From Herpetosiphonaceae bacterium (GTDB taxonomy: Bacteria > Chloroflexota > Chloroflexia > Chloroflexales > Kallotenuaceae): DNA of 50,590 nt. The translations under genes and the position numbers were made by a program. The stretch is from contig JACDGP010000028.1 of assembly GCA_013821605.1 (NCBI GenBank), positions 1-50,590 of the forward strand, given 5' to 3'. Shown piece by piece: positions 33,117-40,787 of this stretch. Positions within the stretch are counted from its first letter, which is position 1, and each line of letters starts with the position of its first letter. The notes beneath the pieces are model-generated. The model ran no database searches. It was not told the origin of the DNA and saw only the letters and a list, made by a program, of their open reading frames with translations.

Positions 33117-33488
33117 TTATCCCTCGTCGCGCACGTCCCGGAGGATGTCTTTCACACCATCAGGCCCGGTGATACTGAGCCAGAGGGGTCCGCGCTCTGC
33201 GGCGACTTCCAGGACAAACGTAAAAAAAGGGCAACAGCGCCGTTCATCGGCAATGAATGCGGTGACGGTGGGGTAGTCATCGGCGGCAAAGCGGAAGGCA
33301 TAGCCATTTGGCAGTTCCCGGGTCTCACGGGCGGTCGTCGTTAGTAGTTGGGTTGCACCGGCAAGATGGGACTGGCGCTGATCAACTGGCAGCGCCATAA
33401 GGTCACAGGCGATCGGCACTGCCTCAGCAGCTCGAGTTGCTTCACAACAGTCCTGCTCGGTTATCGCGTGGGTCGTTGTCGTACTCAT
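33117..33488 (-). CDS. Hypothetical protein with paired cysteines
   Basis: 123 residues from ATG 33488 (GGA six bases upstream); the frame stays open to 33539. Two vicinal Cys pairs are visible, QDCC near residue 13 and DERRCCPFFTFVLEV near residue 85, followed by GPLWLSITGPDGVKDIL. Proteins with the RRCCPF block occur near metal-resistance genes in other bacteria (recollection, not verified here). It may bind a soft metal or metalloid. First gene on the left side of the arsenic region. Confidence 0.7.
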   Translation of the reverse strand: MSTTTTHAITEQDCCEATRAAEAVPIACDLMALPVDQRQSHLAGATQLLTTTARETRELPNGYAFRFAADDYPTVTAFIADERRCCPFFTFVLEVAAERGPLWLSITGPDGVKDILRDVRDEG

Positions 33489-34928: not shown

Positions 34929-34962
34929 AAAAAAAGGTGGGAAGAGGGGCATCTCTCCCACC
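34929..34962 (-). terminator. Strong intrinsic terminator of the arsR-arsM-microprotein transcript
   Basis: Arms GGTGGGA (34936-34942) and TCCCACC (34956-34962), extended by GAG/CTC with a one-base bulge. Read on the minus strand it is followed by seven T (34935-34929). It lies 32 bases beyond the stop of the convergent plus-strand DUF385-like gene. Confidence 0.85.
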
Positions 34963-35117
34963 TTCCCAGACGTCTCGTATGCACTGATGAGGTGCTCGGG
35001 ACGGGGCATCGCTTATTGCGTGCTGGTGGTCCATGTGGGGCACGGGAGCTTGGTTAGACTTCCTGACCCATTGGCCGGACTCGTTATCATGTGTTCGCAT
35101 CGCAGCCGATTGACGTG

Positions 35118-35148
35118 CACAAGGAGCAACCCTGCGTTGCTCCTTGTG
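35118..35148 (-). terminator. Hairpin directly after the Cys-rich microprotein gene
   Basis: Perfect 12-bp stem CACAAGGAGCAA (35118-35129) with TTGCTCCTTGTG (35137-35148) and a seven-base loop, 19 bases beyond the microprotein stop. No T run follows; it may protect the mRNA 3' end, as the better terminator is further downstream. Confidence 0.6.
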
Positions 35149-35167
35149 GGCTTACCGATGGAGTGTC

Positions 35168-35236
35168 TTACTTGCCGGTGCAGCAGTCACCGCCGCAGCA
35201 CTGCTCGTCGCCCTGACAGCAATCGTTTGTATGCAT
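35168..35236 (-). CDS. 22-residue cysteine-rich microprotein, putative arsenite-binding peptide
   Basis: An ATG at 35236 with an ideal ribosome site (AAGGAGGTG, six bases away) opens a 22-codon frame ending in TAA. The peptide has six Cys in three adjacent pairs at positions 6-7, 13-14 and 18-19; the second half reads CCGGDCCTGK. It has no hydrophobic segment. The gene is 44 bases downstream of arsM, on the same strand and before the operon terminator. ArsM's N-terminus contains CCGGDSSCC, nearly the same module. A metallothionein-like or metallochaperone role for As(III) is inferred. No known family was recognised. Confidence 0.75.
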   Translation of the reverse strand: MHTNDCCQGDEQCCGGDCCTGK

Positions 35237-35280
35237 GTTCTTCACCTCCTTTCGTTATCAACAGGGAATGTGTCTAGAGC

Positions 35281-36288
35281 CTAGCTGCAACAGTCCGCCC
35301 CGCTGGCCGTTGAGCAACAACTACTCGCGTGGGGTGCGCAACAATCGGGTTGCCCCTGCGTCTCGGGCGTGCAGCAACTCGATTGCTCGGCCTGCACCAA
35401 AGTGAGGGCGTCGGAGTGAGGTTTGGTCGCCCGGACAAAGGTGCTGGCAAAGCGGCTCACGAGTTCGGTGGCCTGCTTCGTACCAAGTCGCTCGACCAGG
35501 ACAGGAAACGATGCACCAACCTGCTCAATGCTGTAGCGACGCGTGACTTCGAGGTCGATCGCGGTAAAGCCGGCCGCGCTGAGCAAGCGGTGGTATTCGT
35601 CGTCGGTGAGTGCTCCGGCAATGCAGCCAGACCAGGACGAGAGGTCGCGCCGAAATTCGACCGTATCCACCAGATCAGCCGGCAGGCCGCCGTGAATGAC
35701 GATGTCCGAGATCGCGAACCGGCCACCGGGCTTGAGCACACGGAAGGCTTCTTCGAGCACTGGGGCTTTATCGACGGCTAGATTGATCACGCAGTTGGAG
35801 ATCAAGACATCAATTGTGTTGCTTGGCAGTGGAATCGACGCAATATCGCCTTTGAGAAACTCGACGTTGGTCGCACCGGCCTGGGCCGCGTTCTGCCTGG
35901 CCAGTTGCAGCATGTCGTCGGTCATGTCGAGGCCGTAGGCAAAGCCTGTGGGTCCAACGCGGCGGGCGGAGAGCAGCACATCAATCCCGCCGCCACTGCC
36001 AAGATCTAGGACGGTTTGACCCGGCTCGAGTTGGGCGAGTGCGGTTGGGTTACCGCAGCCAAGCGAGGCGAGCGCCGCCTTGAGTGGGAGCCCGGCAAGT
36101 TCATCTACCTGGTACAGGTTGTCAGTGATGCCATCGGCGGCACAACACGAACTGTCGCCGCCGCAACAGGCAGCAGCCGGTTCGCTGGTACAACAACCTG
36201 ACTGGTTTTCCGTGAGGACGGTCCGGGCGGCGGCACCGTAGTGCTCGCGCACGGCTTCGACAATCTGCCGGTCGTTTTGGGTGGTCAT
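35281..36288 (-). CDS. arsM: Arsenite S-adenosylmethyltransferase with Cys-pair extensions
   Basis: 335 residues from ATG 36288, with AAAGGAGGAG upstream. It methylates As(III) using SAM. Motifs: TVLDLGSGGGIDVLLSARRV (SAM), GLDMTDDML, and the family cysteines in ASLGCGN, ISNCVINL and WSGCIAGAL. Cys pairs lie at 32-33, 41-42 and 48-49 in the N-terminus and at 305-306, 316-317, 324-325 and 333-334 in a 31-residue tail. Such tails occur in some ArsM proteins and are thought to bind trivalent arsenic. Downstream of arsR by 54 bases. Confidence 0.95.
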   Translation of the reverse strand: MTTQNDRQIVEAVREHYGAAARTVLTENQSGCCTSEPAAACCGGDSSCCAADGITDNLYQVDELAGLPLKAALASLGCGNPTALAQLEPGQTVLDLGSGGGIDVLLSARRVGPTGFAYGLDMTDDMLQLARQNAAQAGATNVEFLKGDIASIPLPSNTIDVLISNCVINLAVDKAPVLEEAFRVLKPGGRFAISDIVIHGGLPADLVDTVEFRRDLSSWSGCIAGALTDDEYHRLLSAAGFTAIDLEVTRRYSIEQVGASFPVLVERLGTKQATELVSRFASTFVRATKPHSDALTLVQAEQSSCCTPETQGQPDCCAPHASSCCSTASGADCCS

Positions 36289-36342: not shown

Positions 36343-36708
36343 CTACACCAGAGGCTGTAGGTACGCGCTGATTGCGGCCCACCGCTGGGCAACGGCCGTC
36401 CGGTTGATGAAATAGTAGGCCCACAAGCCCTGCCGCTCGCAGTCGATTAGGCCAGCTTCGCGCAACAGCCGGAGATGGTGCGATACGGTCGGTTGCTTGA
36501 CCGGTAGGGCGGCTTCGAGATCGCAGACGCAGACCTGACCCGCGTTCCGCCCAAGCATATGGAGGATCTGGAGGCGGATGGGATGGCCGAAGATCAGAAA
36601 GTCGTCACTGAGTTCCTGGGCAGTTGTAGCGGTAAGGTCGGTCAGCGGTTCGTCGCCACAGCAACGGGTGCCTAGGATACGCTCTTGGATGTCGATAGTG
36701 CCTGTCAT
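36343..36708 (-). CDS. arsR: ArsR-family arsenic-responsive repressor
   Basis: 121 residues from ATG 36708 (GAGG upstream). Winged helix: HPIRLQILHMLGRNAGQVCV, then CDLEAALPVKQPTVSHHLRL and LLREAGLIDCERQGLWAYYF. The CVCDL motif in the recognition-domain helix is the classic As(III)-binding C-x-C of ArsR, and an extra pair CCGDE sits near residue 16. It should repress its own operon (arsR-arsM-microprotein) until arsenite binds. Confidence 0.93.
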   Translation of the reverse strand: MTGTIDIQERILGTRCCGDEPLTDLTATTAQELSDDFLIFGHPIRLQILHMLGRNAGQVCVCDLEAALPVKQPTVSHHLRLLREAGLIDCERQGLWAYYFINRTAVAQRWAAISAYLQPLV

Positions 36709-36728
36709 GCTTTGCCTCAATGAACGTC

Positions 36729-36757
36729 AGTATACAGGATATATCGATCGTTGTCAA
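36729..36757 (-). promoter_or_regulatory. Promoter and likely ArsR operator for arsR
   Basis: On the minus strand TTGACA (36757-36752), a 17-base spacer and TATACT (36734-36729). The spacer contains ATCGATATAT, and the whole element is flanked by GTATA and TATAC. A repressor in the spacer would block polymerase. The start site is about 15 bases before the arsR start codon. Confidence 0.75.
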
Positions 36758-37244: not shown

Positions 37245-38978
37245 ATGTGCGATACGTCGGACAGCGATCACGATCACAGTCACGAGCATTCAGCCGGTCA
37301 GCACTGCTGTAGTCTTGGCGAAGATTATGAGCGCAACTTAGCTGAACAACGAAAGCACCAAGTCACGCGCCGGGATGTACTGCGGGCCGTCGGAGCTTCC
37401 GGCCTATTAATCGCCAGTGGGACGATCAATGCCGGATCGGTCTTTGCGGCCGATACGCCGGCTGGCGCTGCTGAGCAGCCGACGCGCCTCTACAGCCCAC
37501 TCGGTGCCGGCGAGTTCGATGGCTTCTACTATCTCTCGGGTGACCACCACATCCACACGCGCTACAGCTCGGATGCGAAGTATGCTGTGCAGCGACAGGT
37601 TGCTGAGGCAAACCACCATGGTCTCGGCTGGATGGTCATCACTGATCACGGTAGTGGAGCACACAATAAGATCAGCGTCGACTTGACCTACCCGGACATT
37701 CAGCAGGCACGTGATGTGTTCAAGAACATGCTGGTTTTCGTAGGGCTTGAGATGAACATTCCGGGTGCTGAGCATGGCACGGTTATGCTTGAGCCAAATG
37801 CCCAGGAGAAGGATCAGATCAAGCAGTTTGAGGCTGCGTATGATGGCCGCATCGCCCCAAATACGGAGGAGCAGGCGATCGCCGGGCTCAAATTCCTCGA
37901 CGGCTATTCACCCAAGCCCCTCTTCTTCGCGAACCATCCCGCGCGTAATGGCCTTGACTCGCCACATGAGATCCGCAACTGGAAAGCCGCAGCGCCAGAG
38001 ATCGCGGTTGGCTTCGAGGGCGCACCGGGCCATCAAGCAGCTGGTTTGATCCGTGACCAAGATGGCAAGTTCGTGGCCTACCGTGGCTTCTACGGGAACA
38101 AACCTGAGGCTACTTCCTGGCCCGGCTATCCACTCGAAAGCTATTTCACCTATGGAGGCTTTGATTGGATGACCGCCAAATTGGGCGGTCTGTGGGACTC
38201 CTTGTTGGGCGATGGGATGCGCTGGTGGATCACCGCCAACAGCGACTCGCATAAATACTTCAATGATCTGCAGGACGTTGATAACACACAGTTCGACGCG
38301 CAGGGCTATGTTAGCGAGGTTGACAAGTATTTCCAGCGTCCGACCTATGGTGACTTCCGACCGGGCGAGTATAGCCGCACGTATGTGATCGCGGATCAGG
38401 CCACCCATGCCGGGGTGATGGAGGCTTTGCGAGCTGGACACAGCTTCGTCGTACTAGGTGACCTGATTGACCGGCTCAAGTTCGTTATCGCCACCACGGA
38501 CGGTCACGGCCAGCATGCCGGTGATACGACGACGGCCGGCATGGGGGACACGCTCACGGTGAAGCCGGGCGGTACTGTGCACGTTACGATGAGTGTCCGT
38601 GTGCCAGCAACGCCCAATTGGTTCAACCAGCGGCCGATGGTCGACCATATCGACCTGATCGGTGGAGATGTCACTCATCCAAGTCAGACGGCCGGAGCAG
38701 ACACATTTACCAATCCTAGCACGCGCGTCTTGGCGACCTACTCGCGTGGGCGCTGGAAGACGAAAGAAAGTGCCGAGGGTCTCGTCCTGACGATGACGTA
38801 CACCCTCCACAACATCCAGCAGGATGGCTACCTACGACTGCGCGGGACCAATACGCATGACCGCAGTGCAACACCGCCAATGGATCCCGACATGCGGGGG
38901 CAGACCGGCACTGCCCAGTCGCCTTGGGATGATCTATGGTTCTACTCGAACCCAGTCTTTATTCGCGTCGTACCCTAA
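37245..38978 (+). CDS. Tat-exported PHP-domain (CehA/McbA-like) metallohydrolase
   Basis: 577 residues. The PHP motifs are clear: GDHHIHTRYSSDA near residue 99, VITDHGSGAHN, LEMNIPGAEH, FFANHPAR and ANSDSH, ligands of a multinuclear metal site. A twin-arginine signal lies at residues 41-70 (TRRDVLRAVGASGLLIASG, then VFAAD), so it is folded with its metal before export. A 40-residue stretch with several His and a Cys pair (SDHDHSHEHSAGQHCC) precedes the signal. Phosphoester hydrolysis is likely, substrate unknown. GGAGGAGAGG lies before the ATG. A perfect terminator follows. Confidence 0.88.
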   Translation: MCDTSDSDHDHSHEHSAGQHCCSLGEDYERNLAEQRKHQVTRRDVLRAVGASGLLIASGTINAGSVFAADTPAGAAEQPTRLYSPLGAGEFDGFYYLSGDHHIHTRYSSDAKYAVQRQVAEANHHGLGWMVITDHGSGAHNKISVDLTYPDIQQARDVFKNMLVFVGLEMNIPGAEHGTVMLEPNAQEKDQIKQFEAAYDGRIAPNTEEQAIAGLKFLDGYSPKPLFFANHPARNGLDSPHEIRNWKAAAPEIAVGFEGAPGHQAAGLIRDQDGKFVAYRGFYGNKPEATSWPGYPLESYFTYGGFDWMTAKLGGLWDSLLGDGMRWWITANSDSHKYFNDLQDVDNTQFDAQGYVSEVDKYFQRPTYGDFRPGEYSRTYVIADQATHAGVMEALRAGHSFVVLGDLIDRLKFVIATTDGHGQHAGDTTTAGMGDTLTVKPGGTVHVTMSVRVPATPNWFNQRPMVDHIDLIGGDVTHPSQTAGADTFTNPSTRVLATYSRGRWKTKESAEGLVLTMTYTLHNIQQDGYLRLRGTNTHDRSATPPMDPDMRGQTGTAQSPWDDLWFYSNPVFIRVVP

Positions 38979-39204: not shown

Positions 39205-39248
39205 TGACATTTAGCATACAACGATCAATTATATCAATACTAATTGAA
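39205..39248 (+). promoter_or_regulatory. Promoter and operator of the arsR/arsC fusion operon
   Basis: TTGACA at 39205-39210 with an AT-rich -10 region at about 39228-39235 (AATTAT to TTATAT). An inverted repeat TCAATTA (39226-39232) and TAATTGA (39242-39248) overlaps the -10 region, as expected for autorepression by the ArsR part of the protein. Confidence 0.65.
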
Positions 39249-39273
39249 TCAAATAATATTGACGGGATTGCAT

Positions 39274-40098
39274 ATGCTTGCTGATGTAGGAGCCATACCA
39301 GGACCAGATGTGCTCGCCTTCTTCAAAGTCCTTGCCGACGAAACACGCCTGGCTATCGTCCGACTGCTCACATTATCTGATCTGCGCGTGGGCGAGTTGG
39401 TCAACGCGGTGCAGCAGCCGCAAAATGCCGTCTCATACCACCTCAAGCAGTTGCGCCGCCTTGGACTTTTGCGGGATCGTCGGAGCAATCGTGACGGGCG
39501 CGATGTGTACTACAGTGTTGATTTGGAGCGGCTGCATGCCTTGTATATGGAGGCCGGGGCGGCGATCCATCCGGGCCTGACGGTGCCTGCGACAGAACCC
39601 GCGAGCCTTGCTGCACTTGAGCGTCCACTCCGGATCTTATTTCTGTGTACGCATAACCGGGCGCGTTCGCAGTTAGCGGAAGGGATTGCTCGCTCGCTGG
39701 CCGGTGATCAGGTGGCCGTGGTTAGTGCCGGCAGTGAACCAAGCGCGGTTCACCCCCTCACCATTGAGCTGTTGCGGGACTTGGGAATTGATGGCAGCGA
39801 CTTGGCCTCCAAGTCGCTCCAGCTGTTTGCTGAGGAGGAGTTTGATTACATCATCACCACCTGTGACCGCGTCCGCGAAGAGTGCCCAACCTTTCCCGGC
39901 GATCCCCGCCAGATCCATTGGAGTTTTGCGGACCCGTTGGAGGTGACCGGTGGCCTCGACCGACAACGGCTCGCTTTTCGCACGACGGCGCGGGAACTCG
40001 TGACCCGTCTTGAATATCTGTTGAGCTTGCCGCACCCAGTGACTGGGCAGCGGCTGATGTTGCGCATCTTCCCACCTCAGTTGCCGGGTCCGAGATGA
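39274..40098 (+). CDS. ArsR-ArsC fusion: repressor plus arsenate reductase
   Basis: 274 residues from ATG 39274; upstream TTG codons have poorer context. The N-terminal ArsR domain (FFKVLADETRLAIVRLLTLS, QPQNAVSYHLKQLRRLGLLR) is fused to a low-molecular-weight phosphatase-fold arsenate reductase (ILFLCTHNRARSQLAEGIAR, with C-x5-R). Two further Cys in TTCDRVREECPTFPGDP match the thioredoxin-coupled redox relay. The repressor domain lacks the C-V-C motif, so its metal site differs. It would sense arsenic and reduce As(V) to As(III). The stop overlaps the aquaporin start. Confidence 0.93.
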   Translation: MLADVGAIPGPDVLAFFKVLADETRLAIVRLLTLSDLRVGELVNAVQQPQNAVSYHLKQLRRLGLLRDRRSNRDGRDVYYSVDLERLHALYMEAGAAIHPGLTVPATEPASLAALERPLRILFLCTHNRARSQLAEGIARSLAGDQVAVVSAGSEPSAVHPLTIELLRDLGIDGSDLASKSLQLFAEEEFDYIITTCDRVREECPTFPGDPRQIHWSFADPLEVTGGLDRQRLAFRTTARELVTRLEYLLSLPHPVTGQRLMLRIFPPQLPGPR

Positions 40099-40787
40099 AT
40101 GCGTCCCTGGTACGGCGAGCCGGCGCGGAATTGGTCGGAACCTATGCCTTGGTGACGGCCGGTTGCGGGGCGATCATGGTCAATGCGCAGACGGGCGCGC
40201 TGACGCATCTTGGCGTTGCCCTGACGTTTGGGCTGGTCATCATGGTGATGATAGCGGCGACCGGCCATATCTCGGGAGCGCACTTCAATCCCGCCGTCAC
40301 CCTCGCGTTTGCCCTGACGCGCCATTTCCGTTGGCGTGATGTCCCGTGGTATATCAGCGGCCAGGTGGTCGGCGCGGTCGCGGGTGCCCTGACCCTGCGC
40401 CTGTTGTTTGGTTTGGTTGCTGATCTCGGTGCCACCCTCCCACAGCATGGTGCCGGCCAAGCCCTGGGCCTCGAAGTCTTGCTGAGTGCGGTTTTGATGT
40501 TCGTGATCATCTCCGTGGCCACCGATACTCGCGCGGTAGGAGAGCTCGCAGCGCTAGCGATTGGGGGAACTGTGGCGCTTGATGCGCTGTGGGGTGGGCC
40601 AGTCAGCGGTGCCTCAATGAACCCGGCACGGTCGTTTGGACCCGCGCTCATTGGTGGTGTTTGGCGTGACCAGTGGGTCTACTGGCTTGGCCCGATCATT
40701 GGAGCGAGTCTCGGTGCATTCCTCTACCAATGGCTGCGCGCGCCGCTGGTGCGTGCGACGGTGGAAACCGAGCCAGTGACAACATAA
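40095..40787 (+). CDS. aqpS: Aquaporin-family channel, likely arsenite-conducting
   Basis: 230 residues with six hydrophobic helices and both NPA half-helices (HFNPAVTLA and SMNPARSFGPA); the N-terminus AELVGTYALVTAGCGAIMV is typical for MIP channels. Its ATG overlaps the arsR/arsC stop (ATGA). Rhizobial AqpS, next to arsC, is known to let arsenite flow out after arsenate is reduced. The same job is inferred here, and no ArsB or Acr3 pump is visible in the window. Confidence 0.88.
   Translation: MNASLVRRAGAELVGTYALVTAGCGAIMVNAQTGALTHLGVALTFGLVIMVMIAATGHISGAHFNPAVTLAFALTRHFRWRDVPWYISGQVVGAVAGALTLRLLFGLVADLGATLPQHGAGQALGLEVLLSAVLMFVIISVATDTRAVGELAALAIGGTVALDALWGGPVSGASMNPARSFGPALIGGVWRDQWVYWLGPIIGASLGAFLYQWLRAPLVRATVETEPVTT

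Follow-up and report, generated by a model that had tools for sequence, protein, structure and literature searches.

A putative cysteine-rich microprotein gene behind arsM in a Chloroflexota arsenic operon

The window, meaning the whole 50,590-nt stretch of DNA analyzed here, carries on its minus strand an arsenic operon that opens with a metalloregulator gene and continues with arsM (Table 1). Behind arsM lies a micro-ORF encoding a peptide of 22 residues, MHTNDCCQGDEQCCGGDCCTGK. The original prediction had this frame ending before the operon's strong terminator, which held in part. The hairpin that adjoins the frame (inverted-repeat core ACAAGGAGCAAC/GTTGCTCCTTGT, present as a single copy within the window) is probably not the operon terminator because it has no T-run; a T-tailed, terminator-like site does lie further 3', about 210 nt beyond the frame. 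The arsR-arsM-peptide transcript probably ends at this second site, and the micro-ORF would be the last gene before it.

Table 1. Features of the arsR-arsM operon and the micro-ORF behind it.
Feature	Coordinates	Strand	Basis or remark
Sigma-70-like promoter TTGACA-17-TATACT, 5' of arsR	36729..36757	minus	11/12 matches; pattern match only
arsR/smtB-family metalloregulator gene, first in operon	36343..36720	minus	NF033788, PF01022
arsM, arsenite methyltransferase, 335 aa	35281..36288	minus	NF008823, 321.8 bits, above its cut-off
Shine-Dalgarno sequence AAAGGAGGTG	35243..35252	minus	ends 6 nt 5' of micro-ORF ATG
Micro-ORF, 22-aa peptide MHTNDCCQGDEQCCGGDCCTGK	35168..35236	minus	translation, ribosome site, shuffle test
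Perfect 13-bp hairpin without T-run	35118..35148	minus	19 nt 3' of micro-ORF; -23.2 kcal/mol, z -4.2
Intrinsic terminator-like hairpin followed by TTTTTTT	34930..34959 (stem 34959-34940)	minus	probable end of transcript

The opposite strand carries a second arsenic unit (39244-40787, plus strand), in which a fused ArsR-ArsC gene precedes a gene reading as an aquaporin. The aquaporin had been named as a possible partner of the peptide, but its gene (40095-40787) is on the other strand and about 4 kb away, outside the arsR-arsM operon. Among the loci compared below, L104 has its micro-ORF, MDCTCPCCDGCNCDPTCCS, between arsM and a gene reading as an aquaporin, and it would be the one locus in support of an aquaporin link. 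Also beside the ars genes (37245-38978, plus strand) is a gene for a CehA/McbA-like PHP-domain protein whose beginning, HDHSHEHSAGQHCCS, is rich in His and Cys. On the same strand as arsM, a gene at 33117-33488 encodes a 123-residue protein with two CC pairs (EQDCCEAT and ERRCCPFFTF); this protein had no Pfam or NCBIfam match and no relative among the fetched loci.

Translation of the minus strand bore out the prediction of a 22-residue frame with three Cys pairs, which are found at positions 6-7, 13-14, and 18-19 (CC-x5-CC-x3-CC). Cys accounts for 6 of the 22 residues (27%), and F, W, and Y are absent. The ribosome site six bases before the ATG and the position downstream of arsM on the same strand were confirmed as well, with 44 nt between the arsM stop and the start of the micro-ORF. 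When both strands of the window (50.6 kb, or 101 kb of strand) were scanned for frames of 12-45 residues with a ribosome site, at least four Cys, and at least 20% Cys, this frame was the single one recovered. Dinucleotide shuffles of 35001-35286 gave a qualifying micro-ORF in 5 of 20,000 cases. The frame is likely translated.

The peptide sequence itself is an orphan within its order. An order-level search located ArsM at 34 places, in the window's own genome and 33 relatives; no counterpart of the window peptide was present behind arsM in the 29 other order-level loci fetched, and the nearest relatives of the window ArsM had no such frame. A homologue search across 400 phylum genomes returned no credible match (E 0.016 or worse), and the weak matches for which loci were fetched were rejected as out-of-context frames without a comparable start or ribosome site. 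No homologue was found by tblastn against a plasmid collection. The window ArsM has seven CC pairs of its own, three in an N-terminal stretch and four in its C-terminal tail; an origin of the micro-ORF by recent duplication of an arsM CC segment was rejected, the nucleotide score being 20 against a mean of 22.4 for synonymous recodings. CC-x5-CC-x3-CC had been put forward as a pattern to look for downstream of arsM, and relatives keeping arsM without the frame as evidence against the proposal. The motif is not conserved, the window peptide has no recognizable homologue, relatives in the order do keep arsM without the frame, and the class of frames described next is patchy on the ArsM tree.

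We then looked for similar frames around ArsM genes throughout the phylum. An initial set of 136 loci (897 kb, both strands), gathered before any family was followed up, contained six small frames preceded by a ribosome site and with at least 25% Cys, and all six adjoin arsM on its strand. Four are downstream of arsM (MHTNDCCQGDEQCCGGDCCTGK in the window, MDCTCPCCDGCNCDPTCCS in L104, MIGPCCPPQPACPEDCCPPEEPCC in L134, and MSACDCPCGPSCPCGC in L177) and two are upstream (MSAANEPCCPEPCCPDPECCPPGEEPCC in L150 and MPCDCPCGSCPCPCLASRHG in L085). Follow-up of families f37, f27, and f12 added further micro-ORFs. Of the resulting 227 distinct arsM loci, which are not an unbiased sample since later families were picked for having a match (the 136-locus set is closer to unbiased), 18 have a micro-ORF adjoining arsM on its strand, and 14 of these lie at most 150 nt downstream. 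About 0.1 would be expected downstream from the background, which was three such micro-ORFs in 0.99 Mb (both strands) of sampled contigs from the window's own genome and the genomes of the followed families. About 92% of the 227 loci have no such micro-ORF beside arsM, and presence on the ArsM tree requires at least 15 changes. Gain and loss of the micro-ORF is therefore frequent, as judged from this tree.

Members of this class have at most 45 residues, at least 20% Cys, a ribosome site, and a position beside arsM or another ars gene, and the window frame has all of these features. Nothing significant was matched in Pfam, NCBIfam, or PDB by the window peptide or by the other members tested; models for Cys-rich RiPP precursors also gave no significant match (FibroRumin at E 7.2 for one member). 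No description of such peptides was found in the open-access literature searched. Outside this phylum, a small sample of 19 arsM loci (12 from plasmids and 7 from genomes) contained no such micro-ORF; two weaker frames there were rejected, one because it is internal to an annotated GDCCVxC gene and the other because it is antisense and has a minimal ribosome site. A Cys-rich frame at another locus of the window's own genome (L322) was discounted by eye, as it appears inside a longer frame. At L090, ArsM stops at TAG and is followed in frame by a Cys-rich stretch without a start codon, ANACCSTAEQPTHCREASDEAACCETGSASASSGCGCR, which may be a truncated tail or reflect an error in sequencing.

The orphan status of the window peptide invites the explanation that this particular frame is a chance ORF or a decayed, non-functional remnant, and that the real microproteins are elsewhere in the phylum. 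Its absence from the order, from the 400 phylum genomes, and from the nearest ArsM relatives would fit this explanation, as would the background of about three chance Cys-rich frames with ribosome sites per Mb. We nevertheless consider it quite improbable: the frame is the sole one of its kind in 101 kb of strand and is located exactly where the class occurs, its ribosome site is near-perfect, and shuffled sequence rarely produced an equivalent.

Families with several copies suggest that the encoded amino acids matter. In f37, the frame begins within the arsM stop codon (ATGA or GTGA) and is preceded by AAAGGAG or AAAGGAGG, a layout typical of translational coupling. The f37 consensus is MNEPCCPxPCCPxPxCCPPxEEPCC, in which the non-Cys residues Pro and Glu are also kept. 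Counts of substitutions on such short frames mean that single pairs weigh little, and most of the evidence comes from the f37 set: among its five comparable copies, pS was 0.26-0.73 and pN 0-0.19, and the two copies within genome G425 are separated by four synonymous substitutions, their amino-acid sequence being unchanged. In close relatives such as L192 and L180, the segment is cleanly absent. A pair from genus g71 has three synonymous and no amino-acid changes over its common first 14 codons, L309/L264 has seven synonymous and three amino-acid changes, and L177/L199 has three synonymous against five amino-acid changes (pS 0.30, pN 0.14). The divergent pair L203/L275 was uninformative. The mostly synonymous change suggests that the amino-acid sequence is under selection in the f37 and g71 members.

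The position of the peptide is less constant than its sequence. The f37 peptide is mostly behind arsM, but it precedes arsM in genome G206, and in G127 it is on the opposite strand behind a gene reading as arsR; each of the eight matches to the f37 profile with E < 1e-3 is at an arsM locus. Another recurring peptide, of the CDCPCG type, precedes arsM in g71 and follows it in G526 (L264) and in f27. In genome G100, where no ArsM was detected, a relative of this type, MSCDCPCGSCPCPCGC (L309, about 1500-1570), has a good ribosome site and precedes a gene whose product begins like ArsI, near an arsC-like gene, so the class may extend beyond arsM. The arsI, arsC, and arsR readings at these shifted loci were made by eye rather than by profile search. 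In f27, a further type of peptide (MTRCEDCCCDKHCCGCGT in L203 and MTTSCTDCCCDKHCCGCGTR in L275) is encoded on the strand opposite to arsM, behind a MerR-like or arsR-like gene.

Because the peptide is kept while its position shifts among loci, its product rather than a leader function seems to matter, and a diffusible peptide is favored over a cis-acting one. A cis-acting element, in which translation of or stalling on the Cys-codon-rich frame controls the neighboring gene, could account for the members placed immediately ahead of arsM or of an arsI-like gene (L254, L150, and L309). The window frame, however, is the last gene before the terminator-like site; most members are downstream of arsM and one is divergent, Pro and Glu are kept besides Cys in f37, and no Rfam match was found. 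We rate this explanation as extremely improbable.

If a diffusible peptide is made, its Cys residues might serve metals in general. A metallothionein-like buffer would bind soft metals (Zn, Cd, Cu, and Hg) and not arsenic specifically, in an ars operon that answers thiol-reactive metals. The Cys content and the lack of aromatic residues in the window peptide agree with such a buffer, as do the f27 peptides MTRCEDCCCDKHCCGCGT and MTTSCTDCCCDKHCCGCGTR, which lie behind a MerR-like or arsR-like regulator and not behind arsM. Still, we think it unlikely, given that the confident f37 copies are all at arsM loci, that a CDCPCG-type relative precedes an arsI-like gene, and that metallothionein families were not matched. 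Overall, the tiny Cys-rich proteins adjacent to arsM probably form a class of peptides that bind arsenic. The original prediction of a new class of microprotein was upheld as to a class tied to arsM, through its ribosome sites, stop-start overlap, enrichment, and mostly synonymous change in f37 and g71, but not as to a shared motif or a homologue of the window peptide.

Thiols may also reach ArsM by a second route. In 54 of the 227 loci (about a quarter), ArsM has a C-terminal tail with at least three Cys, for example GCCGGGGCC, and the tail of the window ArsM has eight. Mutual exclusion between a tail in cis and a peptide in trans was not established, as three loci have both and about 4.8 would be expected if the two were independent. 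Described ArsM enzymes rely on a catalytic site with two or three Cys, and in the described mechanisms reduction alternates with oxidative methylation at the catalytic cysteines (PMC8649762). The window's own genome (99.6% complete) gave no match to GshB (PF02955) or BshC (PF10079), whereas control genomes were positive. Either kind of peptide, separate or fused as a tail, could supply ArsM with thiols.

This catalytic cycle and the undetected gshB and bshC would also be compatible with a redox helper, whose thiols give electrons to ArsM between rounds of methylation, or to arsenate reductase, without carrying arsenic. The window peptide lacks a thioredoxin-type CxxC, and pairs of neighboring Cys usually perform poorly as redox catalysts; we regard a purely redox role as very unlikely.

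We instead favor, as somewhat probable, the reading that the last gene of the arsR-arsM operon is translated into a thiol peptide able to bind As(III) or methyl-As(III), which it would either buffer or present to ArsM. The microprotein gene would be expressed once ArsR is released. Alone, the peptide would probably be unfolded, and its three adjacent Cys pairs may bind trivalent arsenic, either As(III), the methyl-As(III) product of ArsM, or both. Such a small arsenic thiol carrier would buffer the toxic trivalent species and keep them for, or pass them to, ArsM, as a trans counterpart of what the Cys-rich ArsM tail may achieve in cis. It would perhaps substitute for glutathione in a host where gshB was not found. 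Against this role, the eight-Cys tail of the window ArsM could make a second thiol source redundant, and the Cys residues of the peptide could bind another metal. The orphan sequence, the lack of such a frame in the nearest ArsM relatives, the patchy distribution, and the many arsM loci with no micro-ORF alongside also count against it. More tentatively, and with some doubt, we suggest that ribosomally made thiol peptides, whether in trans or as ArsM tails, might be a general arsenic-presenting cofactor of ArsM in phylum members devoid of glutathione and bacillithiol, and might have originated repeatedly from short Cys-codon-rich frames.

Frames of 16-28 codons are usually passed over by gene callers, which can leave an entire class of peptides that handle metals or arsenic unseen. 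Here the class was detectable by its adjacency to arsM, its strong ribosome sites, and mainly synonymous change where copies were comparable. It raises the questions of how thiol-bound arsenic is supplied to ArsM in organisms without detectable glutathione or bacillithiol genes, and how methyl-As(III), the more toxic species, is held there.

Several known systems resemble the window peptide in part. The GDCCVxC-domain (seleno)protein is likewise a small Cys-containing protein from an ars operon, found with ACR3 and arsM on a Sulfuricella plasmid, but it has about 72 residues, a named domain, and a dissimilar sequence; the GDCCVxC motif is absent from the window peptide, which had no NCBIfam match. 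Metallothioneins share the very small size, the Cys richness, the lack of aromatic residues, and the expected binding of soft metals by thiolates. Bacterial metallothioneins have about 50 residues, whereas the window peptide is shorter, has adjacent CC pairs, and lies in an arsenic operon; metallothionein models matched neither it nor seven other members. ArsD, a folded protein of about 120 residues that serves the ArsA pump, is likewise an ars-operon protein with vicinal Cys pairs, but the window peptide has 22 residues and no match to the ArsD domain in Pfam or NCBIfam. In ArsD of E. coli R773, vicinal Cys pairs are found at 112-113 and 119-120, five residues apart, and the N-terminal Cys12, 13, and 18 are needed for carrying As(III) (PMC4562236). 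The CC-x5-CC spacing is also found in the window peptide. Finally, the C-terminal tails of ArsM, such as GCCGGGGCC, are similarly short and carry CC or CGC groups; the tail is fused to the enzyme, whereas the micro-ORF stands as a gene apart and has a start codon of its own.
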